This document shows, piece by piece, positions 36,990-53,684 of a stretch of DNA of 64,000 nt (its first letter is position 1; each line of letters opens with the position of its first letter). The notes under the pieces were generated by a model that made no database searches, was not told where the DNA came from, and was given only the letters and a program-made list of their open reading frames with translations. Both the position numbers and the translations under genes were made by a program. Origin of the DNA: Altererythrobacter sp. TH136 (lineage in GTDB: Bacteria > Pseudomonadota > Alphaproteobacteria > Sphingomonadales > Sphingomonadaceae); assembly GCF_007065885.1 (NCBI RefSeq), contig NZ_CP041409.1, positions 2,093,501-2,157,500 on the forward strand, in the 5' to 3' direction.

Positions 36990-39725
36990 TTAGAGTTTCA
37001 CGCCGATGGAGAACGCCAGCGTGGTGCCCACATCGTAGCTGTTGATGTCGATCCGCCGGTCACCGAACTCCTGGAATTCACGGTGCCCGCGGCCCAGGAT
37101 GTTGCGCGCTTCGAACTTGGCTTCGACCTCGGTCCCGAACAGGTCCACGCCTTCACGCCACACGAAATCGAGCTGCATGCCCGGGCTCTCGATCACATCC
37201 GGTTGTGGCGGCGTGCCATTGAGCCCACGGCTGACCACCCGGTCGCTGGCGTAACTCAGCAGGATCGTCTGCTGAGACAGGCGGTCAGTGTCTTCCAGAC
37301 CAAGCTGCAGGTTGACGATGTGGTCCGACTGCCCCGTCAGCGGCGCGCCGTTGCGGAAGTAGCTGGCTGCGTCCGATGCCGCCGCACCGAACACCGCGAC
37401 GGTATCATCGGCGCTCACCTTCAGCTTGGACTGGCTGAACGTGTAGTTGGCGATCGTCACCAGCCGGCGTGGGGCGAAGAACCCGCTGCCGATCCCCTCC
37501 AGCGGCCAGTACTTCACTGCCTCAAGCTCTCCGCCGTATAGCTGCGCCTCGGGCGCGTTGGCGTACGAGGTCGTGAAGTCGCCGCTGAAGTTGACCACGT
37601 AGGCCTCAATGGGGCGGTCGATCTTCTTGTAGAACGCGGAGGCGGACACCCGCTGCTCGGGCGCGAAGTAGTATTCGAGCCGGGCTTCGGCGTTGAACAA
37701 CTGGCTGTCGACCAGCAGCGGGTTGCCGCGGTACGACCGGTTGTCATCAGGATCGTAATACGGCTGGGCGATCAGCTCGCGGAACTGCGGGCGGGCGATG
37801 GTCTTGGATGCGTTGAGCCGCGCCTGCATCCCGTCCGCCAGGTCGAAGGTCAGCGTCGCCGCGGGCAGCCAGTACCCGCGCTTCAACTCCGTGCCCGTGA
37901 CCGACGGCGGGACGGAGGCGAACACCGCCAGCGGCTTGGTGAACTGGACCGCATCCTCGTATCGGACGCCCGCGTCGAGCGAGACCGGGCCGAAGGCGGC
38001 GTTCCCCTTAAGATAGGCGGCCTTGATCTCCAGCCCGGCATCGAATGCAGGCGTGCCTGGATCGGATTCGATCAGCGTCAGCCCGCCCGCGCCCGGCGTG
38101 TTGGCCGCGACGAACTTGGGGTCGGTCAGCGTCGCGATGAGGTCGTCGATCCGTTGCAGGCCGAAGGCGCTGATCACGTCGCTGTTGCCGCGGAAGTTGT
38201 TGGGGGCCAGGAACAGGAATGCGCGGCGCGTGCTGGTGCGCAGCGTGTCGCTGTAAGCGGCGCCCGTCGTGAGCGAAAAACCGTCCAGGGCACGCCAGGT
38301 GATGTCGCCGCTGGCGGCATACAGGTCTTCGCTGAGGTTGGAGAAAGTCACCTCGCCATCGCCGCCGTTGCCGTTGTTGAGGCGGTTGACGAACTGGCCG
38401 GCGAAGGGGCCGCTGTTTGAACGGACGTACTCGAAGAACAAATCGGACGGCGCGTCGCGTTTCGTGTTCGCGTACGCTGCCCTGAGGTCGATTGCGAGAC
38501 GGTCGCTCGGCTTGAGTTCGGCCACCACCTGGCTGTCGAACAACTGGCGTTCAAACCACGATGTCCGCTGGCCCATGAAGTCGGTGTCGGCGCCGCTCTG
38601 CGCAGGCTTCTGACCCAGCGACAGCGCGGCTTTCTTGACGGTTTCGTGGATGTAGACGTTGGTCCAGCGCAGCTTGCTGTCACCCGCCTCGAACCCAAAG
38701 CCGAGCAGCCCGTTGACCAGGATCCGCTGGTCAGTGTTGACCGTGCGGAAATCTCGTTCGATCGAGGTCAGGTCGAAACTGGACGAGCGCTGCTGCGTGA
38801 TGTCGCGTGTCAGCCACTTGTTGCTGTAGCCGGCAGCGGCGATCACGCCCAGATCGGCATCGCCCACCGGAAAGGTCTTGCCCGCCGACAACGAGGCCGA
38901 GAAATTCGGCATCGTGTTCTTGTCGCGCTGGACCACTGCGTTGCGCGCAGAAACGAGCCGGCGCGCGATCGCGGTGGTGTCGACCGGATCGGTGCCGATC
39001 AGCGCGCGGCTGTCGAAATAATCCTGCAGCAGCGGGGGAACGTCGCGGTTGCCGTTGTCGTACCCGGTCCAATCGCTGCTGCTGCCGTAATATGTGTAGC
39101 CGGTGTTGAAGGTCGTCTCGGTATCGCCCGACACTCCGAAGCCGAGCGACAGGAACGGCTCGTTCGGCGTGGACCTTGTGGTGAGGTTGATCACGCCGCC
39201 GCCGAATTCGCCGGGGTAGTTAACCGAGTAGCTTTTCTGCACGAGCGACGAAGCGATCACGCCGGTGGGGAACAGGTCCAGCGGCACCACCCGCTTCAAA
39301 GGCTCGGGGCTGGGCAGCGGAGAACCGTTGAGCAGCGCCAGGCTATAGCGGTCACCCAGACCGCGCACATAGACAAACCCGCTGCCGACCACGCTGAGGC
39401 CGGTGACGCGGCCGAGGGCGCCGGCAATGTTGCCTTCACCGGTGCGCGCGATTTCGGCGGTGCCGAGCACCGACACGACCTGCGCCGACGTGCGCGCGAC
39501 GTTGCTCTCGCGCCGCCCGGACACGACAATTTCGCCGCTACCGCCGGGGATCGAGACCTCGACATCCTCTGCGGGTGCCGCGACCGCGGGTTCGGCTACG
39601 GCATCGCCAGTGGGCGGGGTCACCGCGGTGCTCGCGCCCGTTTCGGACTGTGCATGGACGATACCGGGCGCGACCAGCGCGCTGGTCAGAAGCAGCGCGC
39701 TCGCCAGCCTCAGATTGGTGGACAT
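36990..39725 (-). CDS. TonB-dependent outer-membrane receptor
   Basis: The 911 aa receptor has a signal peptide ending in IVHAQ and an Ala/Pro-rich linker. The TonB box is near GEIVVSGRRES, followed by a plug with GFVYVRGLGDRYSLALLNGSPLPSPEP and FGGGVINLTTRS, and a large barrel. These traits point to the group that commonly pairs with a surface lipoprotein. It is downstream of the lipoprotein gene at 39808 with only 82 bases between, so they are probably co-transcribed. The substrate is unknown. The upstream region has PhoB-box-like repeats, which hints at phosphorus-containing substrates. Confidence 0.9.
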   Translation of the reverse strand: MSTNLRLASALLLTSALVAPGIVHAQSETGASTAVTPPTGDAVAEPAVAAPAEDVEVSIPGGSGEIVVSGRRESNVARTSAQVVSVLGTAEIARTGEGNIAGALGRVTGLSVVGSGFVYVRGLGDRYSLALLNGSPLPSPEPLKRVVPLDLFPTGVIASSLVQKSYSVNYPGEFGGGVINLTTRSTPNEPFLSLGFGVSGDTETTFNTGYTYYGSSSDWTGYDNGNRDVPPLLQDYFDSRALIGTDPVDTTAIARRLVSARNAVVQRDKNTMPNFSASLSAGKTFPVGDADLGVIAAAGYSNKWLTRDITQQRSSSFDLTSIERDFRTVNTDQRILVNGLLGFGFEAGDSKLRWTNVYIHETVKKAALSLGQKPAQSGADTDFMGQRTSWFERQLFDSQVVAELKPSDRLAIDLRAAYANTKRDAPSDLFFEYVRSNSGPFAGQFVNRLNNGNGGDGEVTFSNLSEDLYAASGDITWRALDGFSLTTGAAYSDTLRTSTRRAFLFLAPNNFRGNSDVISAFGLQRIDDLIATLTDPKFVAANTPGAGGLTLIESDPGTPAFDAGLEIKAAYLKGNAAFGPVSLDAGVRYEDAVQFTKPLAVFASVPPSVTGTELKRGYWLPAATLTFDLADGMQARLNASKTIARPQFRELIAQPYYDPDDNRSYRGNPLLVDSQLFNAEARLEYYFAPEQRVSASAFYKKIDRPIEAYVVNFSGDFTTSYANAPEAQLYGGELEAVKYWPLEGIGSGFFAPRRLVTIANYTFSQSKLKVSADDTVAVFGAAASDAASYFRNGAPLTGQSDHIVNLQLGLEDTDRLSQQTILLSYASDRVVSRGLNGTPPQPDVIESPGMQLDFVWREGVDLFGTEVEAKFEARNILGRGHREFQEFGDRRIDINSYDVGTTLAFSIGVKL

Positions 39726-39807: not shown

Positions 39808-41463
39808 TTACGTGGTCGGCAGCGAGGTGCAGGCGCTTGCTCCGCCGAGCGGGGCGAACGCGCTGTTGCAGGTCCAGCCGGCGTACCAGGCCGTGTTGCC
39901 CGGGAACGCCGCGCCGATCTTGTACGGGGTGGGCGAGGCGGTGAAGAACCCGGCGGCGATTACGGTGCCGGTCGACAGGCCGCTGGGGTCGGTCGGGTTG
40001 ACCGCGTTCTCGTTGGCGCCGTTCACGAAGGTCATCGTCAGCGAGTTGACGAACGCTTCGTTGTTCGATGCATCCCCGGTGATGAACCCGCGCACCTGGG
40101 CGGCGGTGAACGGTGCGGAGCCCGACCCGTCGCCGATGAACTTGGCGTCTCCGGTACCCGAGCACTGGAGCGCGACCGAGCGGGCAGTCAGCGTCGCGTC
40201 GTTGGCGGCATCGGTGTTCGACGTCATCCGGATGCACTCGTTGTTCGGCGAGATGATCAGGCCGTTGTAGAGCGTGACGTCGGCGTTGCCGCGGAACAGT
40301 GCGGAAGCCCGGTCTCCGGTCGTGTTGTTCTGGTTGCTCGCCAGCGGCTGGATGGCGGTGAAGTTGACCACCTTGAGGTTGGTGCGCGGCTGATCGAGCT
40401 CGTTGCCGTTGGAGTCGATCTCCATCAGCGCGTCGCCCTCGCCGGGACGTTGGAGCAGCAGCGCGTACTGAATGCTCGCGCGGGAGCCGGTGTCGACATC
40501 AAGGCTGTCGTCGTCCGCACCGGTGGCCACGTAGTGCTTCATCTTGACCACACCGCCGAAGAATTCGGCGCCGTCGTCCGAGCTGTTGTGCGACTGGATG
40601 TGGTCGAGCGTGGTGCCAGAACCGATCCCGCTGGGGGTCAGCGCTTGCAGTTCCTTGTCGGAGCTGAGCACGAAGCCGGAATAACGGATCTGCACGTAGC
40701 TCATCGTGCCCGAACTGTCGGCATCGTTGTTGCCGCCATACGACGCCTTGTTGACCGCGCCTTCGGTGTCGCGTTCGCAGTTGCCCGCGGCGACCGAGCC
40801 GGTGACGCAGTCGGTGATCCGCCCGCGGCCGAGCAGCACGACGCCGCCCCACTGGCCGATCGAGTTATCGGTGTTGAGCCCGGCGACATTGTCCTGGCTG
40901 GTGAAGATGATCGGCGCGGTGGCGGTGCCGACCGCGTTGATCTTGTTGCCGCGGTTGACCGCCAGCCACGACTGGCCGGTCCGGGCGTAGAAGATCACGC
41001 CCGGCTCGACCGTGAGCGTCACGTTGGTGTCGGCGGTTAGCGGCGCGGTGCAGCCGACGGTGGTGGAGGTGTAGGGTGCGGCGGCGGAGGGTGCGCTGAA
41101 GCCACCATCGCAGCCGACATCGACCCGGCCGTTCATCGCGTACAGCAGGCCCGAGATGCGGGGCAGGGTCACGCTGCGGGCGATGCGGCTGGGCAGTTCG
41201 CACACGCGGTAGCTGCCAGTGGGGCCGCTGATCGTGCCGCGATCGGTCAGTCCGACGGTGCCGTCGTTGGTCAGCGTCGGGCAGGCGCCGGCGGGGGTGA
41301 TCGTCGCGCTGGTCGGCGGCGGCGGCGGCGGGGGAGGCGCGGGGTTGTTGATGACGACGTCGACACCGCCGGTCGTGCCGGGTGAGGAGATGTCATCCGG
41401 ACCGCACCCGGTCAGAATTGCCAGGCCGCAGCCAAGCACGATGGTCCGCTGAATGGTATTCAC
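39808..41463 (-). CDS. large surface lipoprotein with beta-helix-like repeats, paired with TonB receptor
   Basis: The 551 aa protein begins at GTG after a GAGGGGG ribosome site, with a lipobox in AILTGCGPD. The mature part starts with a proline run (NPAPPPPPPPP), followed by segments such as TVEPGVIFYARTGQSWLAV, PIIFTSQDN and GQWGGVVLLGRGRI that resemble right-handed beta-helix proteins of bacterial surfaces. Conserved cysteines suggest disulfides. It is encoded just before a TonB receptor, as in many sphingomonad and xanthomonad pairs, so it probably binds or processes the receptor's substrate. No enzymatic domain is recognised. Confidence 0.75.
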   Translation of the reverse strand: MNTIQRTIVLGCGLAILTGCGPDDISSPGTTGGVDVVINNPAPPPPPPPPTSATITPAGACPTLTNDGTVGLTDRGTISGPTGSYRVCELPSRIARSVTLPRISGLLYAMNGRVDVGCDGGFSAPSAAAPYTSTTVGCTAPLTADTNVTLTVEPGVIFYARTGQSWLAVNRGNKINAVGTATAPIIFTSQDNVAGLNTDNSIGQWGGVVLLGRGRITDCVTGSVAAGNCERDTEGAVNKASYGGNNDADSSGTMSYVQIRYSGFVLSSDKELQALTPSGIGSGTTLDHIQSHNSSDDGAEFFGGVVKMKHYVATGADDDSLDVDTGSRASIQYALLLQRPGEGDALMEIDSNGNELDQPRTNLKVVNFTAIQPLASNQNNTTGDRASALFRGNADVTLYNGLIISPNNECIRMTSNTDAANDATLTARSVALQCSGTGDAKFIGDGSGSAPFTAAQVRGFITGDASNNEAFVNSLTMTFVNGANENAVNPTDPSGLSTGTVIAAGFFTASPTPYKIGAAFPGNTAWYAGWTCNSAFAPLGGASACTSLPTT

Positions 41464-41676: not shown

Positions 41677-41694
41677 CTGTCACCGCATTGTCAC
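41677..41694 (+). promoter_or_regulatory. PhoB-box-like direct repeat upstream of the VirB operon
   Basis: CTGTCAC (41677-41683) and TTGTCAC (41688-41694) are spaced 11 bases start to start with a four-base gap, exactly the layout of a Pho box. It ends 37 bases before the VirB1-like start, so phosphate starvation may control the secretion operon. Confidence 0.5.
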
Positions 41695-41731
41695 TTAGTG
41701 TATGCAGAGGGTCCGGGACGGAGGGCTCGCG

Positions 41732-42385
41732 ATGATTCTCGGCAGACTATGCGGCATGGCTATGGTTGCGCTCGCCTGCGCACCGGTCGCCGCACGCGCT
41801 GATGTGCTGGAGATCGGGCCGAACGGCGCGCAATGGATCGCCGGGGCGCTCGCGGCGTCTCCCCAGGTGCCCAAGAGCGCCGTCGAACAAGTCGAGCTGT
41901 CGGCGGACTTCCCGGTGCCGCAGCACGCTATCGCCGATGCAGCCCGGCAGGCGGGAGTGGTGCCGTCGCTTTATGCCGTCAAGGTGGGCGAGCTTGCGCG
42001 CCGGTTCGATCTCAGCCCGACCCTGATCGAGGCGCTGGTCTGGCAGGAAAGCCGCTGGCGCGCGAACGCAGTTTCGCCGGTGGGCGCGCGCGGACTCGCC
42101 CAGCTGATGCCCGGGACCGCGCGTTATCTGGGGGTCGATGCCAACGATCCGTTCGCCAATCTGGAGGGCGGTGCGCGGTACCTGCGCGAACAGCTCGACC
42201 GGTTCGGTGGCGATATCGAAAAGGCGCTCGCCGCCTACAACGCGGGACCCGGCCGGGTGATCGCGGCCGGGGGCATTCCCCGTATCCGCGAAACGCAAGG
42301 CTACGTCGCTTCGATCATGGGGCGCCTGTCCAACCACTCCCGGCCCAACCATTCACGCCCTTCCTCATCACGAGAGCCGAACTAG
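41732..42385 (+). CDS. virB1: VirB1-like lytic transglycosylase
   Basis: The 217 aa protein has a signal peptide and an SLT domain. The catalytic glutamate is in EALVWQESRWRANAVS, with GARGLAQLMPGTARYLGV and ALAAYNAGPGRVIAAGG as further marks. VirB1 enzymes open the peptidoglycan for type IV secretion assembly. I chose the ATG after the GGAGGG site; an earlier ATG at 41702 is less well placed because it would overlap the Pho-box promoter. It is the first gene of the operon, with VirB2 four bases after its stop. Confidence 0.85.
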   Translation: MILGRLCGMAMVALACAPVAARADVLEIGPNGAQWIAGALAASPQVPKSAVEQVELSADFPVPQHAIADAARQAGVVPSLYAVKVGELARRFDLSPTLIEALVWQESRWRANAVSPVGARGLAQLMPGTARYLGVDANDPFANLEGGARYLREQLDRFGGDIEKALAAYNAGPGRVIAAGGIPRIRETQGYVASIMGRLSNHSRPNHSRPSSSREPN

Positions 42386-42388
42386 ACC

Positions 42389-42691
42389 ATGCTGCGTTTG
42401 ACCCGCCTCCTGCCCATCGCCCTGTTGATGAGCCCCACTGCCGCGTTCGCCCAAGCCGCCGATCCGCAAGGGTCGGGGCCGATCGTCGCCGCGCTCGGCT
42501 GGCTGCAGGGCACGCTGCTGGGCAACGTCGCCACCGCTGTCGCGGTCATGGCGGTGGCTGCGGTCGGCTTCATGATGCTGACCGGCCGGCTCAACTGGCG
42601 GTTCGGCGCGACCGTGATCATCGGCGTGTTCATCCTGTTCGGCGCCGCTTCGATCGTCGCCGGCATCCAGGGCGCGGCGGCGGGAGCGTAG
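42389..42691 (+). CDS. virB2: VirB2/TrbC-like pilin
   Basis: The 100 aa protein has a signal peptide (cleavage after AFAQA) and two hydrophobic helices, VATAVAVMAVAAVGFMML and FGATVIIGVFILFGAASIV, separated by a short basic loop. This is the TrbC/VirB2 pilin plan. It forms the pilus or channel subunit in type IV systems. Its position between VirB1 and VirB3 supports the call. Confidence 0.85.
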   Translation: MLRLTRLLPIALLMSPTAAFAQAADPQGSGPIVAALGWLQGTLLGNVATAVAVMAVAAVGFMMLTGRLNWRFGATVIIGVFILFGAASIVAGIQGAAAGA

Positions 42692-42695
42692 GGCA

Positions 42696-42977
42696 GTGGA
42701 ATTGGCACGTCACCGCGTCCACCGTGCGCTGACCCGGCCGCAGATGTTCGCGGGCGTGACCTACAACTATTTCATCATCAACTTCGCGCTGACCACCGAA
42801 CTGTTCCTCATCACCGGCAGCTGGTGGACGTTGGCCGCCGCGGCGGGGTTCCACCTGGTGGGCTATTTCGCCTGTCTGCGTGAGCCGCGGATTTTCGATT
42901 TGTGGCTGACCAAGGTCTCGAAGTGTCCACGGGTGCGCAACTGGTCGCGGTGGGGCTGCAACAGCTATGCCGCGTGA
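42696..42977 (+). CDS. virB3: VirB3-like inner-membrane protein
   Basis: The 93 aa protein starts with GTG and has two hydrophobic stretches around residues 17-53 (MFAGVTYNYFIINFALTTEL and the following WWTLAAAAGFHLVGYF). It carries the RPQMFAGV entry motif of the VirB3/TrbD family. It sits directly before VirB4, as in known type IV systems. Confidence 0.85.
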   Translation: MELARHRVHRALTRPQMFAGVTYNYFIINFALTTELFLITGSWWTLAAAAGFHLVGYFACLREPRIFDLWLTKVSKCPRVRNWSRWGCNSYAA

Positions 42978-43007
42978 ACGAGAGGCCGCGCCGATGAGGG
43001 ATTGGCC

Positions 43008-45458
43008 ATGACCAAGTGGATCGGCGCCGCCGCGTGGAGTGCAAAGGAAGCGCGCGCAGGCGATCGCCTGCCGTATCTGCGGCTGATCGACGGCAGCACC
43101 GTGTTGCTGCGCGACGGCAGCGTCATGACCGCGCTGCAGGTGCCGGGGCTGCTGTTCGAAACCGAGGATTCCGACGCGCTCAATCACCATGCGGCCACCC
43201 GCGAGGTGATGCTGCGATCGACGCTCGACGCACGGTTCGCGCTGTATCATCATGTCGTGCGCCGGCGGGTGCAGATCGAGCTTGAGGCAGAGTTCCCCGA
43301 CGCTCTGAGCGCGCACATCGACCGCCGCTGGAAGGAGCGGCTGGGCAGCGGATCGCTGTTCGTCAACGACCAGTTCGTCACCCTCATCCGTCGCCCGGCT
43401 CGAGGGCGCGCAGGCTTGGCCGAGAGGGCGACGAAGCTGTGGAGCCGCGCGGGTAAGCGGGGAGGGGGGCAATCCGAGGCAGAAGCTGACCCCAAGGACA
43501 TCCGCGCGCTCAAGGCGGCGGCCACCGGGCTGGTCGCCTCGCTGCAGGCTTATGGCGCGGCGCTGCTCGGCGATTACCAGGGCCCCAGCGGCGGCACCAA
43601 CAACGAAATACTGGAACTGCTGAGCGCGCTCTACAACGGCGAGATGCGCCCGGTACGCCGGCCCGCGGCGGGGACCGACATCGGCCAGATGCTACCCTAT
43701 CGGCGAGCGAGCTTCGGGCTCGATGCGATGGAGCTGCGCGGCAGCGGCGAACCCGATTTTGCCGCGATCCTCAGTCTCAAGGATTATCCGGAGGCGACCA
43801 GCCCCGGGCTGCTCGACGCGCTCCTGCGCCAGCCGTTCGAGATGGTCGTGTCCGAAAGCTATGCACCCACCGAACGGACCACCGCGCGTGAACGGATGGA
43901 CCTGGCGATCCGCCGGCTGAAGTCGGCCGACGAGGAAGCGATGGCCGAACGGGCCGACATGCTGGCCGCCCGCGATGCGCTTGGCAACGGCGCGGTGGGG
44001 TTCGGGGATCACCACCTGACGGTTCTGGTGCGCGCCCCGCACTTGCCCACGCTCGACGAGGCGACCGCATCGTGTGCCGCTGCCCTCGCCGACACGGGCG
44101 CGATCGTGGTGCGCGAGGATACCAATCTGGAACCGGCGTTCTGGGGCCAGTTCCCCGGCAACGAGGCGTACATCGCGCGCCGGGCGATGATCTCCAGCGC
44201 CAACATGGCGAGCTTCGGCTCCCTGCACGGCATGGCGCTCGGCCAGGCGGAAGAGAACCACTGGGGCGAGGCGGTCACGCTGCTGCAGACAACCAGCCAG
44301 ACGCCGTTCTTCTTCAACTTCCACAACGGCGACCTCGGCAACTTCACGGTCATCGGACCGTCGGGTTCGGGCAAGACGGTGGTGATGAACTTCCTGGCCG
44401 CGCAGGCGCAGAAGTTCTCCCCCCGCACGATCCTGTTCGACAAGGACCGCGGCGCCGAATTGTTCATTCGCGGCATCGGGGGGCGTTACGACCGGATTGC
44501 CGCGGGCGAACCGACCGGGTTCAATCCATTGGCGCTGCCCGACACGCCGACCAACCGGGCGTTCCTGCGCGATTGGCTGGGCGTGCTCCTGGCGGCGGAG
44601 GGGCCGGAAGAGCTGGCGACCATCGCCGGTGCGGTCGATGCGGCGTACGCCAACGACGCTTCGCTGCGCCGCCTGCGGCATTTCCGCGAGCTGCTGTCGG
44701 GCGCCAGGCGCCCGCAGCCGGGCGACCTTGCCGACCGCCTGTCGGCCTGGATCTTGGGCGGGGAGAACGCGTGGCTGTTCGACAACGAACGCGACCGGCT
44801 GGACCTGTCCACCCGCGTGCTCGGCTTCGACATGACCGCGCTGCTGGAAAACCCGCGGTTGCGCACGCCGACGATGTTGTACCTGTTCCACCGCATCGAC
44901 GAGCGGCTCGATGGCAAGCCGACGATGGTGCTGATCGACGAGGGCTGGAAGGCACTGGACGACGCGGTGTTCGCGGCGCGCATCCGCGACTGGCTGAAGA
45001 CGCTGCGCAAGCGCAACGCGCTGGTCGGGTTCGCCACCCAATCGGCGCGGGACGCGCTGGAAAGCCGGATCGCCACCGCGCTGGTCGAACAGACCGCGAC
45101 AATGATCTTCATGCCGAACGCCCGCGCCCGGGCAGAGGATTATTGCGACGGGTTCGGCCTAACGAGCCACGAACTGGCCCTGATCCGCAGTCTGCCGGCC
45201 CACAGCCGGGCGTTCCTGATCCGCCAGCCGGATGCCAGCGTGGTGGTGCGGCTCGATCTGTCGAATGCGCCTGAGGTGCTGGCGGTGTTGTCAGGCCGCG
45301 AAAGCAGCGTGCGGCGGCTCGACCTGCTGCGCGAGGCAGTGGGCGACAATCCGGCCGACTGGTTCGGACCGCTCACCGGCCATGCCTGGCCGGGCGGCAC
45401 ACCAGCGTTCGAGGATGGCGGAGACGCCGACCTGCCCTTGCGCCTGGCGGCCGAGTGA
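43008..45458 (+). CDS. virB4: VirB4-like type IV secretion ATPase
   Basis: The 816 aa protein is the large ATPase of type IV secretion. The Walker A motif GPSGSGKTVV is near residue 450, Walker B is in TMVLIDEGWKAL, and the N-terminal CagE/TrbE-VirB domain has RLPYLRLIDGSTVLLRDGS. It ends in the usual RQPDASVVVRLDLS segment. The ATG follows GAGGG; an in-frame TTG six bases upstream is less likely. All motifs needed for ATP hydrolysis are present, so the system is not obviously decayed. Confidence 0.93.
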   Translation: MTKWIGAAAWSAKEARAGDRLPYLRLIDGSTVLLRDGSVMTALQVPGLLFETEDSDALNHHAATREVMLRSTLDARFALYHHVVRRRVQIELEAEFPDALSAHIDRRWKERLGSGSLFVNDQFVTLIRRPARGRAGLAERATKLWSRAGKRGGGQSEAEADPKDIRALKAAATGLVASLQAYGAALLGDYQGPSGGTNNEILELLSALYNGEMRPVRRPAAGTDIGQMLPYRRASFGLDAMELRGSGEPDFAAILSLKDYPEATSPGLLDALLRQPFEMVVSESYAPTERTTARERMDLAIRRLKSADEEAMAERADMLAARDALGNGAVGFGDHHLTVLVRAPHLPTLDEATASCAAALADTGAIVVREDTNLEPAFWGQFPGNEAYIARRAMISSANMASFGSLHGMALGQAEENHWGEAVTLLQTTSQTPFFFNFHNGDLGNFTVIGPSGSGKTVVMNFLAAQAQKFSPRTILFDKDRGAELFIRGIGGRYDRIAAGEPTGFNPLALPDTPTNRAFLRDWLGVLLAAEGPEELATIAGAVDAAYANDASLRRLRHFRELLSGARRPQPGDLADRLSAWILGGENAWLFDNERDRLDLSTRVLGFDMTALLENPRLRTPTMLYLFHRIDERLDGKPTMVLIDEGWKALDDAVFAARIRDWLKTLRKRNALVGFATQSARDALESRIATALVEQTATMIFMPNARARAEDYCDGFGLTSHELALIRSLPAHSRAFLIRQPDASVVVRLDLSNAPEVLAVLSGRESSVRRLDLLREAVGDNPADWFGPLTGHAWPGGTPAFEDGGDADLPLRLAAE

Positions 45459-45468
45459 GGCGCGGCGG

Positions 45469-46665
45469 ATGAGCGTGGCCTGTGATGCCGCCGCGCAGGA
45501 GCTCGGCAATGGCGTGGCGGCCGCGCTGCGGGCGGTCGATTGCGTTGCCGGCGAAACCATGACGGCCGCCTTTGGCCGACTGTTCGCGCCCGGCGGAGCA
45601 ATGGTGACGGTGCTCACCATCCTGCTCGGGCTGTTCGTTGCCTGGTTTGGCATCAACCTTTTGCTGGGTCGCGCGAATCTCAGCGTCCGGTCACTGACTC
45701 CGCGCATGATGACCATGGGCGCGGTGTTGACGCTGGTGACCAGTTGGGTTGCCTATAGCACGCTGGTTTTGAACCTGACCGTTGGCGGGCCTGACTGGAT
45801 CGCCGGAGTGATTACCGGCAGCCCGGGTTCGGCGACACAGGTGTTTGCGCAGAAGATCGACGTCGTGTTCCAGGCGTTGCAGCAGGCAAGTCCGCAGACC
45901 GAAGGCAAGGACGTCGGCGCGTTTTCGCCCGAAGGCATGATGTGGCTGGGCGCGATGCTGTTCCTGCTCGGCACCGTCGGCGTGCTGGTCACCGCGCGCA
46001 TCGCGCTGGCGGTGCTGGTCGCGGTGGGGCCCATCTTCGTGGTGCTGGCGCTGTTCCAGGGCACGCGCGGGCTGTTCACCGGCTGGCTCAAGGGGCTGGT
46101 GATGCTGGCGCTGGTCCCGCTGTTCGCGGTGCTGGGAGGCAGCGTGATGCTGGAACTGGCGGTGCCGGTGCTCGCCGCGCTGGTGCAGACCCCGGGGCAG
46201 GTCGACCCCCAGGCAGCGGTCGCGTTTTTCCTCGTCGGCTCGGTTCACATGGCGCTGATGGTGATGGTGCTCAAGGTCACCGGCACGATGGTGTCTGGCT
46301 GGCGGGTGTTCGGCCTGGTGCCGGAAGGCGGCGCGGGAGAGGGGCGGTCCGCTCCGTCGTATGGCGTGTCCGCGGTGCCGCCGCTGGCCGCCGCCCCGAC
46401 GCCTGCCGCGTCCCCCGCCACACCCGCTGCAGATCGGCGCATCCCCCTGTCGTCGTTTGCCGTCGCTCCGGCGGCGAACGATGCCTCGCCCGCCGCGCAC
46501 ACCCAGGGCCGGGACACGCGGGTGATCACGCGCGAGGTTGCTTCAGGCTCTGCTCAGATCGGTGCGGTCACGGGGGAGGCGCCGTCGCGGGTTCGCGGGA
46601 TCGGCAGCCGGTTCCGCGCGCCGCCGCCCCGGCACCCGACCCGCTATTCGGAGAAAGTGAAATGA
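45469..46665 (+). CDS. virB6: VirB6-like polytopic membrane protein
   Basis: The 398 aa protein has five to six hydrophobic helices, including VTVLTILLGLFVAWFGINLL, ARIALAVLVAVGPIFVVLAL and VMLALVPLFAVLGGSVML, which match the VirB6/TrbL family. The C-terminal 110 residues are a Pro/Ala/Arg-rich cytoplasmic or periplasmic tail. It overlaps the VirB9 gene by four bases. In known systems VirB5 would precede it, but only ten bases separate it from VirB4 and no VirB5 is present. Confidence 0.87.
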   Translation: MSVACDAAAQELGNGVAAALRAVDCVAGETMTAAFGRLFAPGGAMVTVLTILLGLFVAWFGINLLLGRANLSVRSLTPRMMTMGAVLTLVTSWVAYSTLVLNLTVGGPDWIAGVITGSPGSATQVFAQKIDVVFQALQQASPQTEGKDVGAFSPEGMMWLGAMLFLLGTVGVLVTARIALAVLVAVGPIFVVLALFQGTRGLFTGWLKGLVMLALVPLFAVLGGSVMLELAVPVLAALVQTPGQVDPQAAVAFFLVGSVHMALMVMVLKVTGTMVSGWRVFGLVPEGGAGEGRSAPSYGVSAVPPLAAAPTPAASPATPAADRRIPLSSFAVAPAANDASPAAHTQGRDTRVITREVASGSAQIGAVTGEAPSRVRGIGSRFRAPPPRHPTRYSEKVK

Positions 46666-47447
46666 TCCGCGCAGCTTTCGCGCTCGTCCTGACGGCAACC
46701 TCGGCCGGCGCACTGGCGGACGATTCCCGCATCGTGGAGAGGTTCTACGACGCAGGTCAGGTCGTGCGGATCGACGGGCGCACCAAGGTCCAGGCGACGA
46801 TCCAGTTTGGTGAGGACGAGCACATCGAGAACGTCGCCATCGGCGATTCGCAGGCGTGGCAGGTTACTCCGAACAAGCGGGCCAACCTGTTGTTCGTGAA
46901 GCCGCTGGCGACGACCGCTAGCACCAACATGACGGTGGTGACCGATCGCCGCACCTATCTGTTCGATCTGGTCGCCAGCGCCTCGGCCAAGCCGCTGTAC
47001 GTGCTGCGATTCACTTATCCCGAAGAGCCGAAGGCGGACGCCGCCGCGCAACTGGCCGCCGCCGACGCGCCAACGGCAGAAGAAATGGGTGCCGCGGCGG
47101 CGCCGCAGGTGGTTACCGATCCGGCCGCGCTCAATTTTGCCTGGGCCGGGAAGGGCGACCGCAAGCTGCTGCCGTCGCGCACCTATGACGATGGTACGGC
47201 GACCTTCCTCGCATGGCCGTCGGGAAGCCCGGTTCCGGCGATTCTGATCAAGGATGCCAACGGCACCGAAGGGCCGGTGAACTTCACCGTGCGCGGGGAT
47301 GTAATCGTGGTGGACGGCGTGCCGCGCGAAATCGTTCTGCGGTCGGGCAAGCAGGCGGCAACGCTGGTGAACGGCGGGCCGGTGGCCTCCGCGCCGCAGA
47401 CTTCGCTCGCCCGCAGCGACAACAGCACCCTGAGGGAGAACCGGTAA
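46662..47447 (+). CDS. virB9: VirB9/TrbG-like outer-membrane channel protein
   Basis: The 261 aa protein has a signal peptide and the VirB9 features: IQFGEDEHIENVAIGDSQAW, LFVKPLATTASTNMTVVTD and YLFDL in the N-terminal half, and FAWAGKGDRKLLPSRTYDDG in the C-terminal half. It would form part of the outer-membrane core complex with VirB10. Its usual lipoprotein partner VirB7 is not present. Confidence 0.9.
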   Translation: MIRAAFALVLTATSAGALADDSRIVERFYDAGQVVRIDGRTKVQATIQFGEDEHIENVAIGDSQAWQVTPNKRANLLFVKPLATTASTNMTVVTDRRTYLFDLVASASAKPLYVLRFTYPEEPKADAAAQLAAADAPTAEEMGAAAAPQVVTDPAALNFAWAGKGDRKLLPSRTYDDGTATFLAWPSGSPVPAILIKDANGTEGPVNFTVRGDVIVVDGVPREIVLRSGKQAATLVNGGPVASAPQTSLARSDNSTLRENR

Positions 47448-48583
47448 TGCGCCTCGCCATGCGGCTGCCGGCCAAGAAGCCGGGCGAAACCATCGCCAAC
47501 GACCTTGACCCGCGCGAGGGCGAGACCGCCGAGATCATCGATCTTGCCAGCCGCAATGCGTTTCCCGCGGTTACGCAGCGCAAGGGCAAGTCCGACGGGT
47601 TGGGGCTCGCCGTAGGGGTCGCGGTGATCGGATTGCTCGGCGCCGTGACCTTGTGGTCGATGAATGCCGCCCGGACGGAGCAGCCGCAGAACGGCGTCGG
47701 TAGCCAGCAGGCTTCTCAGCCCCAGACGATGATGCTTCCGCCCCAGGCTGTGACGACCATGCAGCAGCCCGGTCAGCCGCAGCCGGTCGGCATGCCGCGG
47801 CCCGACCCCGCGCCGCAACCGGTCCTGTCATCGATGCCGGGATACTCTCCAGGTGTCGCACAGGTGCCGGTGACCAATCCTTTTGCCAATCCGACGGTGG
47901 TGTTCGATGCCGGCAATCTGGCGCCAGGCATGGGTGAACCGGGCTCCGGCCCGGCAGGCGCCAATCCGGATGCCGTCACGGGCAACGCCAACGATTTCGC
48001 CAGCAGGGTCGGCGGGGTCGGGGGAGGGACCGCTCAGGCCAAGGCCATGGTCAATCCGCAGACGACCGTCACGCAAGGCACCCTGATCCCTGCGGTATTG
48101 GAGACCGCGATCAATACCGATGTGCCGGGCTTCGTGCGGGCGGTGGTGAGCCAGGACGTCCGCAGCTTCGACGGCACCCGCGTGCTGGTCCCGCGCTCCA
48201 GCCGCTTGATCGGCCAGTATCAGTCCGGTCTGCAAGGCGGGCAGAAGCGGGCTTACGTCATCTGGACGCGGCTGATCCGGCCCGACGGTGCTTCGGTCAA
48301 TCTGGCCTCTCCCGCGGTGGGTTTCGACGGCACCACGGGGCTGGCGGGTACGGTGAACAGCCACTTCTTCAAGCGCTTTGGATCGGCCATGTTGCTGTCG
48401 GTCATCGGGGGCCTCGCCACCGGCGGCGCGTCGGTAGTGCTCGGCGGCGGAACGAGCGCGGCCAGCACCGCGCTGCAGCAGGACGGGCAGATCGCGCCGA
48501 CCGTGCGCGTGCGCCAGGGCGAACCGATCCGCGTGTTCACCGCCCGCGACCTGGATTTCAGCCAGGTAGCGGCGGTCAAGTAG
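47447..48583 (+). CDS. virB10: VirB10/TrbI-like core channel protein
   Basis: The 378 aa protein has a cytoplasmic N-terminus, one membrane helix (about residues 49-67), a long Pro/Gln/Met-rich linker and a C-terminal beta-barrel domain. Family marks are GTLIPAVLETAINTDVPGFV, GTRVLVPRSSRLIGQY and VRVRQGEPIRVFTARDLDF. It spans both membranes in type IV systems. The ATG overlaps the VirB9 stop by one base (TAATG). Confidence 0.92.
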   Translation: MRLAMRLPAKKPGETIANDLDPREGETAEIIDLASRNAFPAVTQRKGKSDGLGLAVGVAVIGLLGAVTLWSMNAARTEQPQNGVGSQQASQPQTMMLPPQAVTTMQQPGQPQPVGMPRPDPAPQPVLSSMPGYSPGVAQVPVTNPFANPTVVFDAGNLAPGMGEPGSGPAGANPDAVTGNANDFASRVGGVGGGTAQAKAMVNPQTTVTQGTLIPAVLETAINTDVPGFVRAVVSQDVRSFDGTRVLVPRSSRLIGQYQSGLQGGQKRAYVIWTRLIRPDGASVNLASPAVGFDGTTGLAGTVNSHFFKRFGSAMLLSVIGGLATGGASVVLGGGTSAASTALQQDGQIAPTVRVRQGEPIRVFTARDLDFSQVAAVK

Positions 48584-48593
48584 TGCGCGCGCG

Positions 48594-49589
48594 ATGACCG
48601 CCGACGTCCACCCCTTGCCCGGCGTGGCGCCCGTTGGCGAACGAAGCGTCTATCTCGACGCCTACCTCGCGCCGTTCGCACAGTGGTTGGCGCGCGATTC
48701 CGTCACCGAGATCCTGGTCAACCGGCCGGGCGAAGTGTGGATCGAGGATGCGACGCTCGGCGGAATGCAGCGGATCGCCGCGCCCGAGATCGACGATCGG
48801 CTGGTCCAGCGCCTCGCCGAGCAGGTCGCGCGCGTCAGCCACCAGGGCATCAACCGCGAGCATCCGTTGCTGGGCGCGACATTGCCCGATGGCGCGCGAG
48901 TCCAGTTTTGCGGGCCGCCCGCCTCGCGCAAGCACTGGGTGATGGCGATCCGGCGCCATCGGCGGCTGGACCTGCCGTTGGACGCCTACGACGCGGGTCC
49001 GCTCACCGGTTCGGCGACTGCCTCGCTGCCGGACCCGCAGGCAGAGCCGATCGCATTCCTGCGCGCCGCCATCGCGCAGCGGCAGACGATCCTGATCTCC
49101 GGCGGCACCAGCACCGGCAAGACTACTTTCCTCAACGCCATGCTCGGCGAGATTCCGCGCGACCAGCGAGTGATCCTGGTCGAGGATACGCCGGAGCTGA
49201 AGCTGCCCGGCGACAACGGCGTCGGCCTGGTGGCGGTGAAGGGGGAACTCGGCGAGGCCAAGGTCACCGCCAACGAACTGCTGCAGGCTGCGCTGCGGCT
49301 GCGTCCCGACCGGATCGTGCTGGGCGAATTGCGCGGTGCGGAGAGCGTCAGCTTCCTGCGCGCGATCAATACCGGCCATCCGGGTAGCTTTTCCACCATC
49401 CACGCCAACAGCCTGCGCGGCGCGCTGGACCAGCTGGCGCTGATGGTCATGCAGACCGGCATCGGCCTCACCCGCAGCGACACGATCGCCTACGCCGCCA
49501 GCGTAATCGACATCATCGTCCAGCTGGGACGGGATGCGTCCGGGCGGCGGGGTATCACGGCGATCGCACAAAGCGCCGCGCTGGTTTGA
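48594..49589 (+). CDS. virB11: VirB11-like secretion ATPase
   Basis: The 331 aa protein is a hexameric traffic ATPase. Walker A is SGGTSTGKTTF near residue 170, the Asp box is LVEDTPELKL, Walker B is RIVLGELRG, and the His box is TGHPGSFSTIHAN. It has 10 bases to VirB10 and is the last gene of the operon. No VirD4 coupling ATPase is found near it. Confidence 0.92.
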   Translation: MTADVHPLPGVAPVGERSVYLDAYLAPFAQWLARDSVTEILVNRPGEVWIEDATLGGMQRIAAPEIDDRLVQRLAEQVARVSHQGINREHPLLGATLPDGARVQFCGPPASRKHWVMAIRRHRRLDLPLDAYDAGPLTGSATASLPDPQAEPIAFLRAAIAQRQTILISGGTSTGKTTFLNAMLGEIPRDQRVILVEDTPELKLPGDNGVGLVAVKGELGEAKVTANELLQAALRLRPDRIVLGELRGAESVSFLRAINTGHPGSFSTIHANSLRGALDQLALMVMQTGIGLTRSDTIAYAASVIDIIVQLGRDASGRRGITAIAQSAALV

Positions 49590-49775: not shown

Positions 49776-52754
49776 ATGAGGGTCAAAGCAACCCTGCTGG
49801 CGGGAATCTGTGCGTCGTGCGTCGCCTTTCCGGCTGCTGCGCAAGACGTGTCACCCGAAAGTCCGCCCGATCAGACCGAACGCGCCGGGCCGATCGAGTC
49901 CGGCAACGTCATCGTCGTGACCGCGCAGCGCCGCGCGCAAGCCCTCCAGAATGTTCCGATCGCAGTCAGTGCGTTCACTGCCGAGGCCCTCGAGGCGCAG
50001 CAGATCGACAACGCGTCGGACTTGCAGCTGACCCTGCCGAACGTCACCTTCTCCAAGGGCAACTTCACCGGATCGAGCTTTACCATTCGCGGTGTGGGCG
50101 ATCTATGCGTCGGCAACAGCTGCGACAGCGCCACCGGCATTCACATCAACGGTTCGCCGCTGTTCGGCACCCGCCTGTTCGAAACCGAATATTTCGATCT
50201 CGAGCGGGTCGAGGTGCTGCGCGGGCCGCAGGGCACTCTGTTCGGGCGCAACGCGACCTCGGGCGTGGTCAACTTCGTGACCGCCAAGCCCAACCTGGCA
50301 GAGTTTCAGGGCAAGGCCGAAGGCGAATACGGCAACTTCAATTCGATCAAGGCCAAGGGGATGATCAACGTCCCCGTTGGCGAAACGCTCGGCGTGCGCG
50401 TCGCGGGGTTCTACCTCAAGCGCGACGGCTACACGAAGAACCTGTTCGACAACTCCGACATCGACGGGCGCGACATGTACGCGGTGCGTGGATCGATCCG
50501 GTGGGAACCGGGCCCGAATACCACGGTCGACCTGATGGGTTATTACTTCCGGGAAAGTGACGACCGGCTGCGCATCCAGAAGCAGCTCTGCCAGCGCGAT
50601 CCAACCGGGGTTCTGGGATGCCTGAACAATCGGCGCGACGCGGCCAAGGTCAACGGCAACTCCACCTTCCCGGCCGTTCTGGGTTCGCGCGAGGTGTTCG
50701 CGCTCAATGGGATCAGTCCGTTGCTCGGACTGGGGGTGGGCAGTCTCTATGGCCCCGATGGCAACGCCACCGCGGTCGAGCCGAGAGACGTGCGCACGGT
50801 CAACACCGATTTTACCCCGGAATATTTCACCGACGAAATCCAGGCACAGGCCCACATCGAGCAGTCGTTCGGCGACATCAATTTGGGACTGACCGGCATC
50901 TACCAGAAGGTCCGCATCGAATCCCGGCAGGACTACAACCTCGACGTGTCCGGGCGAACGACGATCCAGCCCGGGCTGAACTCTCTCGCATTCCTGGCCG
51001 CGAACGGCATTCCGGGCCTGCCGGGCACCGCTGCCTATTTCGCGCCCATCGCTGCGGCCCTGATCCCCAATGGACCGGGCGGGCAGCTCTGCACGTCGAA
51101 CACCAACGCCAATGGCCTCGGAGCGTTCGGCGGCGACAGCGTCTGCGGCGACGGTCCGCTTGCATTCGACAGGTCGAACGGACGCAGCCAATCGTGGTCG
51201 GCGGAAGCGATCATCAGTTCGGACTTCGACGGACCGTTCAATTTCCTGCTGGGCGCGATCTACGCGCAGAACGAGATCACGAACGGCGATTATTACGTCA
51301 ACGCATTCGCGATCGACTATTTCGCGTCCCTGTTCGGCACTTTCACTGCACTGAGCAACGGCCTGCCGCCATCGTACCTGGGCTCGCCGTACTTCCGCAA
51401 CCACCTGGAGCGGTTCAAGCTGAAATCGTACGGCATCTTCGGTGAAGCGTACGTCGACATCTCGGACCGGCTCAAGCTCACCGCCGGTATCCGCTACAAC
51501 AACGACAAGAAGCACGACGAATCGAACTCGACGCTCGCGTCGTTCCTGGTGCCGTACAGCACCACGACCGACATCTTCGATTCCCCGTTCGCCGGCAGCT
51601 TCGATGCCGACACCGGGGCCACGGGACTGCCGGGCGCGCAGCAACTGCGCATTCGGGACGTCAGCTTCGACGAGTTCACCGGGCGGGCGGTGCTCGACTT
51701 CCAGGTCACGCCCGATAATCTGATCTATGCGTCGTATTCGCGCGGCTACAAGTCCGGGGGCATCAACCCAGCCTTGCAGTTCTCGATCCCGGGGGTGACG
51801 GAATCGTTCGATCCGGAAATCGTCAACGCGTTCGAAGTGGGGTCGAAGAATACGTTCGCCAACGGCGCAATGCAGCTGAACCTCACCGGGTTCTATTACA
51901 AGTACAAGGGGTTGCAGCTCAGCCGCATTCTTGCCCGCACGTCGATCAACGACAACATCAATGCCGATATCTACGGTGCAGAGGCGGAAGCCGTCATTCG
52001 GCCGGGGCCCGACACCCTCGTCAACCTGGGTTTCAGCTACCTGAAGACCAAGGTCACCGACGATACCCTGTTCATCAATCAGCGCGATCCGTCGGGCGGG
52101 CTGCCGAACTCGGTGATCATCAAGGACATCGGACAGGCGTTCAACTGCGCCGTGGTGGCCAACGTCGGCGGACAGGCGTTCGCCGACGGCTTCGTCACAA
52201 GCGTGAACAACGGCATCAATGCCTCGCGCGGACTGACTGCCGCCAACGGGCTGCGGGGTCCCACTCCGTTCCCGGCCGATGCGAACGTCGGTGCAGGAAG
52301 CGGCGCCTTCAGCAGCTGCGCTGCGCTGGAAGCCGCCGCGGCTGGTACAGGCGGTGCGATCACCGTTTACGGCGGCGGCGTACCGGTCAGCATAAAGGGC
52401 AACAGTCTGCCCCAGGCGCCCAACTTCAAGGCGTCGATGGGCATCCAGCACACCATCCGGATGAACAGCGGGATGACCCTGGTTCCCCGGGCGGACGTGA
52501 CCTACACCGGGGAAAGCTTCGGCAATATCTTCAACGGCCGGGTCAACAAGGTGCGAAGCTACGTCCAGGCGAACGCGCAGGTGCAGCTCAACGGAGTGGA
52601 CGATCGCTGGTATGTGCGCGGTTTCGTGCAGAACATCTTCGACAGCAACGCGACCACGGGCCTATACCTGACCGACCAGTCGTCGGGTCTCTACACCAAC
52701 ATCTTCACGCTTGAACCGCGCCGCTACGGCATCGCGGCCGGGTTCAACTTCTAA
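49776..52754 (+). CDS. TonB-dependent receptor (large, 992 aa)
   Basis: The receptor has a signal peptide ending in AFPAAAQD and a TonB box near NVIVVTAQRRAQ. The plug has TLPNVTFSKGNFTGSSFTIRG and RVEVLRGPQGTLFGRNATSGV, and the barrel ends in AAGFNF. The QRRAQALQNVPIAVSAF opening is typical of the sphingomonad receptors that take up diverse organic substrates rather than siderophores. A GAGGAGAGG ribosome site precedes the ATG. The plug has two extra cysteines (GDLCVGNSCDSATG) that may form a disulfide. The substrate is unknown. Confidence 0.9.
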   Translation: MRVKATLLAGICASCVAFPAAAQDVSPESPPDQTERAGPIESGNVIVVTAQRRAQALQNVPIAVSAFTAEALEAQQIDNASDLQLTLPNVTFSKGNFTGSSFTIRGVGDLCVGNSCDSATGIHINGSPLFGTRLFETEYFDLERVEVLRGPQGTLFGRNATSGVVNFVTAKPNLAEFQGKAEGEYGNFNSIKAKGMINVPVGETLGVRVAGFYLKRDGYTKNLFDNSDIDGRDMYAVRGSIRWEPGPNTTVDLMGYYFRESDDRLRIQKQLCQRDPTGVLGCLNNRRDAAKVNGNSTFPAVLGSREVFALNGISPLLGLGVGSLYGPDGNATAVEPRDVRTVNTDFTPEYFTDEIQAQAHIEQSFGDINLGLTGIYQKVRIESRQDYNLDVSGRTTIQPGLNSLAFLAANGIPGLPGTAAYFAPIAAALIPNGPGGQLCTSNTNANGLGAFGGDSVCGDGPLAFDRSNGRSQSWSAEAIISSDFDGPFNFLLGAIYAQNEITNGDYYVNAFAIDYFASLFGTFTALSNGLPPSYLGSPYFRNHLERFKLKSYGIFGEAYVDISDRLKLTAGIRYNNDKKHDESNSTLASFLVPYSTTTDIFDSPFAGSFDADTGATGLPGAQQLRIRDVSFDEFTGRAVLDFQVTPDNLIYASYSRGYKSGGINPALQFSIPGVTESFDPEIVNAFEVGSKNTFANGAMQLNLTGFYYKYKGLQLSRILARTSINDNINADIYGAEAEAVIRPGPDTLVNLGFSYLKTKVTDDTLFINQRDPSGGLPNSVIIKDIGQAFNCAVVANVGGQAFADGFVTSVNNGINASRGLTAANGLRGPTPFPADANVGAGSGAFSSCAALEAAAAGTGGAITVYGGGVPVSIKGNSLPQAPNFKASMGIQHTIRMNSGMTLVPRADVTYTGESFGNIFNGRVNKVRSYVQANAQVQLNGVDDRWYVRGFVQNIFDSNATTGLYLTDQSSGLYTNIFTLEPRRYGIAAGFNF

Positions 52755-53607: not shown

Positions 53608-53684
53608 GCGCCCGTAGTTCAACTGGATAGAGCACGAGCCTTCTAAGCTTGGAGTTGCAGGTTCGAGTCCTGCCGGGCGCGCCA
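53608..53684 (+). tRNA. tRNA-Arg (anticodon TCT)
   Basis: The 77 bases fold as a cloverleaf: acceptor GCGCCCG (53608-53614) pairs with CGGGCGC (53674-53680), and discriminator G is followed by an encoded CCA. The anticodon loop is CTTCTAA, giving TCT, which reads AGA/AGG. The T arm is GCAGG-TTCGAGT-CCTGC. No integrase or repeated 3' end is nearby. Confidence 0.95.

Follow-up and report, generated by a model that had tools for sequence, protein, structure and literature searches.

The window analysed here comprises 64,000 nt of Altererythrobacter sp. TH136 (assembly GCF_007065885.1, NZ_CP041409.1, forward-strand positions 2,093,501-2,157,500). Eight genes in the order virB1-B2-B3-B4-B6-B9-B10-B11 lay contiguously on the plus strand between 41702 and 49589, and no gap exceeded 30 bp; from virB1 to virB11, the intergenic spacings were 3, 4, 30, 10, -4, -1 and 10 bp. 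Their identities were established with Pfam profiles, all above the curated cut-offs, and additional NCBIfam models were used for VirB4 and VirB11. The lytic transglycosylase gene virB1 (41732..42385; SLT, E 4.4e-24) was followed by the pilin gene virB2 (42389..42691; TrbC/VirB2, E 4.9e-18) and by virB3 (42696..42977; VirB3, E 4.7e-28), which begins with GTG. The ATPase gene virB4 (43008..45458) matched CagE_TrbE_VirB (PF03135, E 6.2e-40) and TIGR00929 (710.9 bits against a cut-off of 643.1). It preceded virB6, encoding a polytopic inner-membrane protein (45469..46665; TrbL/VirB6, E 1.7e-38), virB9 (46662..47447; CagX, E 1.2e-52) and virB10 (47447..48583; TrbI, E 3.6e-49). The last gene, virB11, encodes a second ATPase (48594..49589; T2SSE, E 2e-36; TIGR02788 VirB11, 296.6 bits against a cut-off of 249.95).

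The contiguity, tight packing and intact ATPase motifs described in the original prediction were confirmed by the Pfam matches, the short gaps and the P-loops present in VirB4 and VirB11. The predicted span of 41677..49589 was correct at its end; for VirB1, whose reading frame opens at 41702, the ATG at 41732 was preferred to 41702 or 41677 as the start common to several relatives. Pfam found no fused extra domain in the eight window proteins. The operon combined a VirB4 ATPase with VirB3, VirB6, VirB9 and VirB10, as VirB-type type IV secretion systems (T4SSs) do.

Subunits not found in the genome

The genome, a single contig of 2.6 Mb marked 100% complete, was searched as a whole. It contained no match to the VirB8 profile PF04335 at E 0.001, nor any match to the VirB5 profile PF07996 or the relaxase profile PF03432 at E 1. 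The best VirD4 match in the genome scored 10.1 bits, below the cut-off of 20.1, which separates the machine from the VirD4-dependent classes (conjugative, effector and Xanthomonas-type bacteria-killing systems). The VirB8 bitopic protein with an NTF2-like domain, another mark of VirB-type systems, was found neither in the genome nor in the locus. The genes virB6 and virB9 overlap by 4 bp (46662..46665, plus strand) at the site where sister clusters carry virB8 (about 250 codons); because of this spacing of -4 bp, no gene fits there. Likewise, the operon had no room for VirB7, a very short lipoprotein.

The behaviour of the profiles was checked in 14 control genomes. PF04335 matched none of them and 69 of the 149 genomes of the family compared here, and matches above the cut-off were obtained in none of the controls for PF07996 and in one for PF03432. 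A VirB8 profile built here from 13 sequences gave E 0.0097 on the Pfam-positive VirB8 of locus L111 and missed the VirB8 proteins of loci L102, L107, L108, L109 and L110. Therefore, it was considered too narrow, and the Pfam profile was used instead.

VirB8, VirB5 and VirD4 had originally been reported as absent from the window, and this holds genome-wide, for VirD4 in the sense of a match below the cut-off. The reported absence of VirB7 stands for the operon, and that of a relaxase stands for PF03432. Since VirB8, VirB5, PF03432 and VirD4 above the cut-off were not found in the complete contig, the suggestion that the missing parts were encoded elsewhere on the chromosome was left without support.

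Distribution and evolution of the cluster

Among the 149 genomes, the best 60 VirB9 places, belonging to 59 genomes, had no VirB8 match within 10 kb, and all of the next 20 had one within 0.83 kb. A PF04335 match occurred nowhere in 36 of the 59 genomes carrying the VirB8-less cluster. A strong VirD4 match, defined as E<1e-40, was lacking in 34 of these 36 genomes, TH136 included, and present in the other two (G045 and G125). It was also present in 13 of the 23 cluster genomes that had VirB8 elsewhere.

Spacing and motifs were surveyed in 37 VirB8-less loci, including the window. The distance between virB6 and virB9 ranged from -10 to +44 bp in all of them, the VirB4 P-loop was present in 37 of 37, and the VirB11 Walker A motif in 36 of 36. 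All eight genes were found in 33 loci; of the remaining four, two ended at a contig edge and two lacked only a detected virB1. Across these relatives, the cluster was conserved as a unit. Among 924 matching records, no plasmid VirB4 reached 60% identity. The VirB8-less operon looks conserved and reduced, neither broken nor scattered, in agreement with the earlier suggestion of a machine of reduced design, given its recurrence in 59 of 149 family genomes and the failure to find the missing parts elsewhere.

In the tree, the VirB8-less clusters formed one clade with a support of 100, sister to VirB8-bearing clusters; virB8 was therefore lost once within the sampled clusters. The eight operon genes are under purifying selection, with median dN/dS values of 0.10-0.23 per gene. 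On the VirB8-less branch, the stems were long for VirB6 (0.84) and VirB11 (0.82), middling for VirB4 (0.26) and short for VirB3, VirB9 and VirB10 (0.00-0.07), values that are exploratory only because the alignments held mis-extended reading-frame starts and the division between the two stems rests on the outgroup.

The VirB8-bearing sister clusters were L109, L110 and L111, placed by the tree, and L124, on plasmid NZ_CP098765.1 of Sphingomonas aerolata, assigned by similarity and outside the tree. Their VirB4 proteins were 53-54% (L109-L111) and 52.4% (L124) identical to that of the window, and the shared genes followed the same order, although L111 had no virB1 match and virB6 of L124 was unannotated. 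As in the window, there was no room for VirB5 between virB4 and virB6 in L109-L111; of the sister-cluster genomes, G106 and G072 had no VirD4 match and G042 had a weak one (7.9e-11). In contrast to the window, VirB8 preceded VirB9 in the sister clusters, and the virB6-virB9 spacing of 772-799 bp in L109-L111 held a PF04335 VirB8.

The absence of VirB8 was already noted in 2009 for Erythrobacter litoralis HTCC2594 and Erythrobacter sp. NAP1 in a footnote to Table 1 of PMC2702493. As described there, the method of that study counts VirD4 as present in the scored genomes, whereas VirD4 above the cut-off was not found in TH136. We infer that the T4SSs of HTCC2594 and NAP1 belong to the same VirB8-less clade. 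According to PMC4919336, all 14 Erythrobacter genomes carry one T4SS copy, which co-evolved with the hosts.

The surroundings of the operon were also compared. A lipoprotein gene on its upstream side (39808-41463, minus strand) was the commonest neighbour; it occurred in 51 of the 59 cluster genomes and in 54 of the 90 others, within 10 kb of 39 of the 60 cluster places and elsewhere in the genome for 13. Because it was common without the cluster and often distant from it, this gene was treated as a neighbour by synteny and rejected as a substrate or VirB8 substitute. Its AlphaFold model was unusable (mean pLDDT 43.4). A small TPR-like gene, which preceded virB1 in 20 of 35 loci, was rejected as a VirB8 substitute because it had no match in the TH136 genome at E 1e-5. 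In 33 approximate upstream regions, consensus patterns for CtrA, EcfG, LexA and RpoH matched none or one. GANTC was present in all 33, as so short a pattern is by chance; no regulatory lead emerged.

Comparison with known systems and possible function

Among minimised type IVA systems, the Agrobacterium VirB/VirD4 system and R388 Trw share homologues of the eight subunits, whose genes follow numerical order in the window; in contrast to these systems, TH136 had no VirB5 or VirB8 match and no VirD4 above the cut-off, and its operon leaves no space for VirB7. The conjugation apparatus of Mycoplasma ICEs, which belong to wall-less bacteria, differs in having a VirD4 homologue, whereas the window has VirB1, VirB9, VirB10 and VirB11 and no VirD4. 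In the R388 structure, VirB8 makes up the arches and also anchors VirB4, its tails being bound to the outer VirB4 subunits; VirB5 is located on the VirB6 stalk (PMC9259494). According to PMC5494299, assembly depends on VirB8 as an essential factor in the VirB/D4 systems studied. The outer-membrane subcomplex of the Cag system, in contrast, remains stable and in place when its VirB8 homologue is missing (PMC5494299), which shows that VirB8 is not needed for a core to form. The Helicobacter ComB system for DNA uptake, as described in PMC13395361, resembles TH136 in having no VirB5 or VirD4 and in its VirB4 and VirB11 motors, ComB9 and ComB10. It differs in possessing ComB8, the VirB8 counterpart not found in the TH136 genome, in its operons without VirB1 and in the location of comB11 apart from the comB operons.

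The TH136 chromosome carries a VirB operon without virB8 that purifying selection maintains, and the genome has no detectable VirB8, VirB5 or PF03432 relaxase and no VirD4 above the cut-off. As the best explanation, it is tentatively proposed that a conjugation machine was domesticated on the chromosome and works without a coupling protein, VirB8 arches or VirB5, with ComB-like DNA uptake as its most likely job. The ancestral machine would have lost VirB5 and VirD4 in a first step, as in the VirB8-bearing sister clusters, and VirB8 in a later one. The present machine would still assemble VirB9 and VirB10 into the outer-membrane complex and VirB3, VirB4 and VirB6 into the inner-membrane platform, with VirB11 as the motor and VirB2 as the pilin, and would leave out the VirB8 arches and VirB5 stalk cap. 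Without a coupling protein, cytoplasmic substrates would not be taken by the known VirD4 route. DNA might cross the outer membrane through the VirB machine, as in ComB, with ComEC serving the inner membrane.

DNA uptake across the outer membrane is a first guess that is more probably wrong than right. A ComEC domain was present in the TH136 genome; however, the full-length ComEC model was below its cut-off, and ComEC is common, being matched in 12 of 14 controls. The two other T2SSE matches in the genome were nearest to TadA, by a wide margin over PilB, PilT and GspE, so no type IVa pilus motor for DNA uptake was found, and Tad systems might import DNA. The presence of ComB8 in ComB, the lack of VirB1 in the ComB operons and the strong VirD4 matches in some cluster genomes also speak against the proposal. 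No report of natural transformation in these bacteria was found among the literature titles listed. It is doubtful that the whole picture applies, namely a working Gram-negative T4SS that needs no VirB8, VirB5 or VirD4, is held without arches by VirB3, VirB6 and VirB10 alone, is chromosomal in much of the family, including Tsuneonella-like bacteria, and imports DNA.

The main rivals to DNA uptake are periplasmic export and a pilus. Export of periplasmic protein through the VirB9/VirB10 complex without VirD4 would resemble Ptl, which functions without VirD4 on a periplasmic substrate but possesses a VirB8 homologue. The low VirD4 score in TH136 and the lack of a strong match in most VirB8-free relatives agree with such export, as does the absence of VirB5 from Ptl (PMC2653234). 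However, no substrate gene was tied to the operon, and this explanation is considered unlikely. It is similarly improbable that VirB2 is polymerised for attachment or aggregation with no other substrate moved. The conservation of VirB2, VirB3, VirB4, VirB6 and VirB11 at low dN/dS and the failure to find a coupling protein would suit such an organelle, but VirB5, the minor pilus subunit, was not found in the genome, which already holds two TadA-like motors, and the Agrobacterium VirB2-VirB5 pilus complex is reported to need a VirB4-VirB8 interaction (PMC2653234). A contact-dependent machine, also suggested originally, found no direct support, and a strong VirD4 was lacking in 34 of the 36 VirB8-free genomes.

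The requirement for VirB8 in the studied systems (PMC5494299) would be accommodated if an unrelated or extremely diverged protein coded elsewhere had replaced it and the arches were still present, since unrelated substitutes escape profiles. The lack of PF04335 in 36 of 59 genomes, the closed virB6-virB9 spacing in all 37 loci and the absence of fused domains render this rather unlikely. Decay of a conjugative element could account for the missing parts, including the PF03432 relaxase and coupling protein that were not found, but was rejected as very improbable in view of the dN/dS values, the kept ATPase motifs and the near-complete loci across relatives. An ordinary T4SS split over two chromosomal places, for which no supporting evidence was found, was practically excluded by the whole-genome profile searches for VirB8, VirB5, VirD4 and PF03432.

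If the domesticated machine is an arch-less DNA importer, VirB8 would be dispensable once a machine no longer serves VirD4-dependent export. A lineage that keeps eight core genes without VirB8 is a natural deletion experiment on the role of this protein, and structural studies could use its operon as a small VirB machine from a Gram-negative bacterium. The findings point to a vertically kept envelope machine in many environmental bacteria, where a T4SS is easily taken for a conjugation or virulence system.

Composition of the operon and search for the missing subunits

The operon comprises eight genes on the + strand, each of which scored above the curated Pfam cut-off for its family: virB1 (41732-42385, in a frame that opens at 41702), virB2 (42389-42691), virB3 (42696-42977), virB4 (43008-45458), virB6 (45469-46665), virB9 (46662-47447), virB10 (47447-48583) and virB11 (48594-49589). 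The intergenic gaps from virB1 to virB11 were, in order, 3, 4, 30, 10, -4, -1 and 10 bp, with a 4-bp overlap between the VirB6 and VirB9 reading frames, so the contiguity and tight packing of the original prediction were confirmed.

The source genome is a single contig of 2,608,152 bases marked as 100% complete. No match to VirB8 (PF04335) at E 0.001, or to VirB5 (PF07996) or a relaxase (PF03432 profile alone) at E 1, was obtained in this genome, and its best VirD4 (PF02534) match reached 10.1 bits versus a cut-off of 20.1. PF04335 matched in none of 14 control genomes but in 69 of the 149 sampled family genomes; therefore, the profile works in this group. PF07996 was over its cut-off in none of the controls, and Pfam does detect VirB5 in four other loci (L102, L105, L107 and L108); PF03432 was over its cut-off in one control. 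Thus, the predicted lack of VirB8, VirB5 and VirD4 in the window extended to the whole genome, and the suggestion that these parts lie elsewhere on the chromosome was not borne out. A split of the machine over two chromosomal sites was not supported.

The divergent neighbour of the operon (39808-41463, - strand) encodes a predicted lipoprotein of 551 aa, with an LTGC lipobox read by eye and no Pfam or NCBIfam match. At E 1e-20, it was matched in 105 of the 149 family genomes, 54 of which had no virB cluster. In 20 of 35 loci, a gene for a small TPR-like protein, the secretion signal of which was read by eye, was located upstream of virB1 (e.g., L001:4538-4999); at E 1e-5, this protein matched in 66 of 149 family genomes and had no match in the window's genome. 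Large TonB-dependent-receptor-like ORFs, named by eye, lie on either side of the operon (36990-39725, - strand; 49776-52754, + strand). In some relatives, a polyphosphate-kinase-like gene, also named by eye, followed virB11. The sole tRNA found in the window was tRNA-Arg (tct) at 53608-53684 (+ strand).

Conservation of the VirB8-less cluster

VirB9 was matched at E 0.001 or better in 105 of the 149 family genomes, and the best 80 VirB9 places were counted, weaker ones being left out beforehand. When distances were measured against all 125 VirB8 places of the family search, places 1-60 (59 genomes) were free of VirB8 matches to a distance of 10 kb, although some places (in G018, G135 and G125) lay on short contigs or close to the end of one, where the view was partial. 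The nearest VirB8 was 10.4 kb off, beside another VirB9 (G123). Places 61-80 had VirB8 within 0.83 kb in 20 of 20 cases. Genome G125 held two VirB8-less places at contig starts (C29:966 and C31:954), possibly a duplication or an assembly effect.

VirB8 had no match anywhere in 36 of the 59 genomes and was found elsewhere in the genome in the other 23. VirD4 matches were strong (E < 1e-40) in two of the VirB8-free genomes (G045 and G125), weak in 12 and absent in 22; the corresponding numbers for the 23 genomes were 13, 3 and 7. Seven of the 12 weak matches, those with listed places, covered only profile positions of approximately 262-426 (six) or positions 131-425 (one), within reading frames 612-872 codons long. 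These were taken for putative FtsK.

Gene order was compared in 37 VirB8-less loci, window included, with one place represented twice (L005 and L087). All eight genes were present in 33; the set ended at a contig edge in L003 and L086, and every gene except virB1 was detected in L100 and L101, which come from a single genus in a different family of the class. The B6-B9 spacing ranged from -10 to +44 bp across the 37 loci, whereas in the VirB8-bearing sister clusters L109, L110 and L111 it was 772-799 bp and contained PF04335 VirB8. The cluster was thus conserved as a unit, and the observation that it lacks VirB8 proved correct and wider than first stated. Beyond the family, similar VirB4 was rare: among 289 sampled genomes of the class, with at most three candidates scored in each, 12 matched at E 1e-100 or better, and three of those 12 belonged to the family.

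The ATPase motifs were intact, as predicted: the VirB4 P-loop was found in 37/37 VirB8-less loci and VirB11 Walker A in 36/36, with a Walker-B-like VirB4 pattern in 36/37 and the VirB11 STIHA pattern in 29/36. Median dN/dS in ten pairs from five close relatives was 0.14 (B1), 0.16 (B2), 0.12 (B3), 0.10 (B4), 0.23 (B6), 0.21 (B9), 0.21 (B10) and 0.12 (B11), with a top single-pair value of 0.72 (B9); these values are possibly inflated because some ORF starts were mis-extended.

According to a table footnote of 2009, VirB8 is missing from the T4SSs of two strains, Erythrobacter litoralis HTCC2594 and Erythrobacter sp. NAP1 (PMC2702493). All 14 Erythrobacter genomes were reported in 2016 to have one T4SS copy that co-evolved with the genomes, and in five strains a T4SS was described as adjoining a TonB-dependent transporter gene (PMC4919336). 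Neither a follow-up of the missing VirB8 nor an account of the family-wide pattern was found in the literature searched, which covered few subscription journals. Mycoplasma ICEs are described as having no VirB8-like components (PMC12857230); therefore, absence of VirB8 alone is not unique.

Ancestry of the cluster

A tree of concatenated VirB3, B4, B9, B10 and B11 was constructed with IQ-TREE (1000 ultrafast bootstraps) from 42 rows, namely 36 VirB8-less loci (L003 omitted) and six VirB8-bearing loci, of which L102, L107 and L108, carrying both VirB8 and VirB5, were the outgroup. All VirB8-less rows formed one clade with support 100 (value printed after rooting), and L109-L111 were its sister (support 92). 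Because the VirB8-less rows form a single clade, virB8 was lost once in this sample, which had six VirB8-bearing rows. The window paired with Tsuneonella rigui, which together with T. litorea was its nearest named VirB9 relative (80%). VirB5 and VirD4 were probably lost before VirB8, since the B4-B6 interval of the sister clusters was too small for VirB5 and VirD4 gave no match in two of their genomes (G106 and G072) and a weak one in the third (G042).

Among 924 plasmid records matching VirB4 at E 1e-100 or better, there was no close copy, since every one was below 60% identity. The best (52.4%), from Sphingomonas aerolata, belonged to a cluster with VirB8 and was the only record examined for VirB8 content. 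A second VirB2-like gene was seen in this cluster (L124:16985-17353) and in VirB8-bearing L111 (3908-4783).

Possible function of the VirB8-less machine

In R388, the outer VirB4 subunits are bound by VirB8 tails, the arches are VirB8 periplasmic domains, the central VirB4 is wrapped by VirB3, and the VirB6 stalk is topped by VirB5 (PMC9259494). Subtraction of VirB5 and VirB8 would leave VirB3/VirB4/VirB6, VirB11 and the VirB9/VirB10 core, a set that amounts to one ring, one platform and a pair of motors. The Cag outer-membrane subcomplex assembles without the VirB8 homologue, but CagA translocation is lost (PMC5494299).

Without VirD4, the known path for cytoplasmic substrates is shut, which leaves import, periplasmic export or the assembly of fibres as jobs. 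Fibre assembly and periplasmic export are the main rival candidates to import. With regard to import, Helicobacter ComB, like the window operon, is without VirB5 and VirD4 and is driven by VirB4 and VirB11 (PMC13395361). A ComEC domain was detected in the window's genome (195 bits), with the full-length ComEC model below its cut-off. The other two T2SSE matches of the genome were nearest TadA (TIGR03819, 341 and 330 bits, below the cut-off of 373) and gave 43-65 bits with the PilB, PilT and GspE models. These two ATPases (L121, C1:7097; L122, C1:1162584) possibly represent two Tad pilus systems.

Against import, ComB differs from the window operon in possessing a VirB8, and ComEC is a common protein. 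A role in natural transformation was earlier predicted for alphaproteobacterial T4SSs (PMC4919336, citing Hubber 2004 and Aylward 2013). Because of the likeness to ComB, the ComEC domain and the TadA-nearest matches, import is nevertheless favoured as the putative function of the VirB8-less machine.
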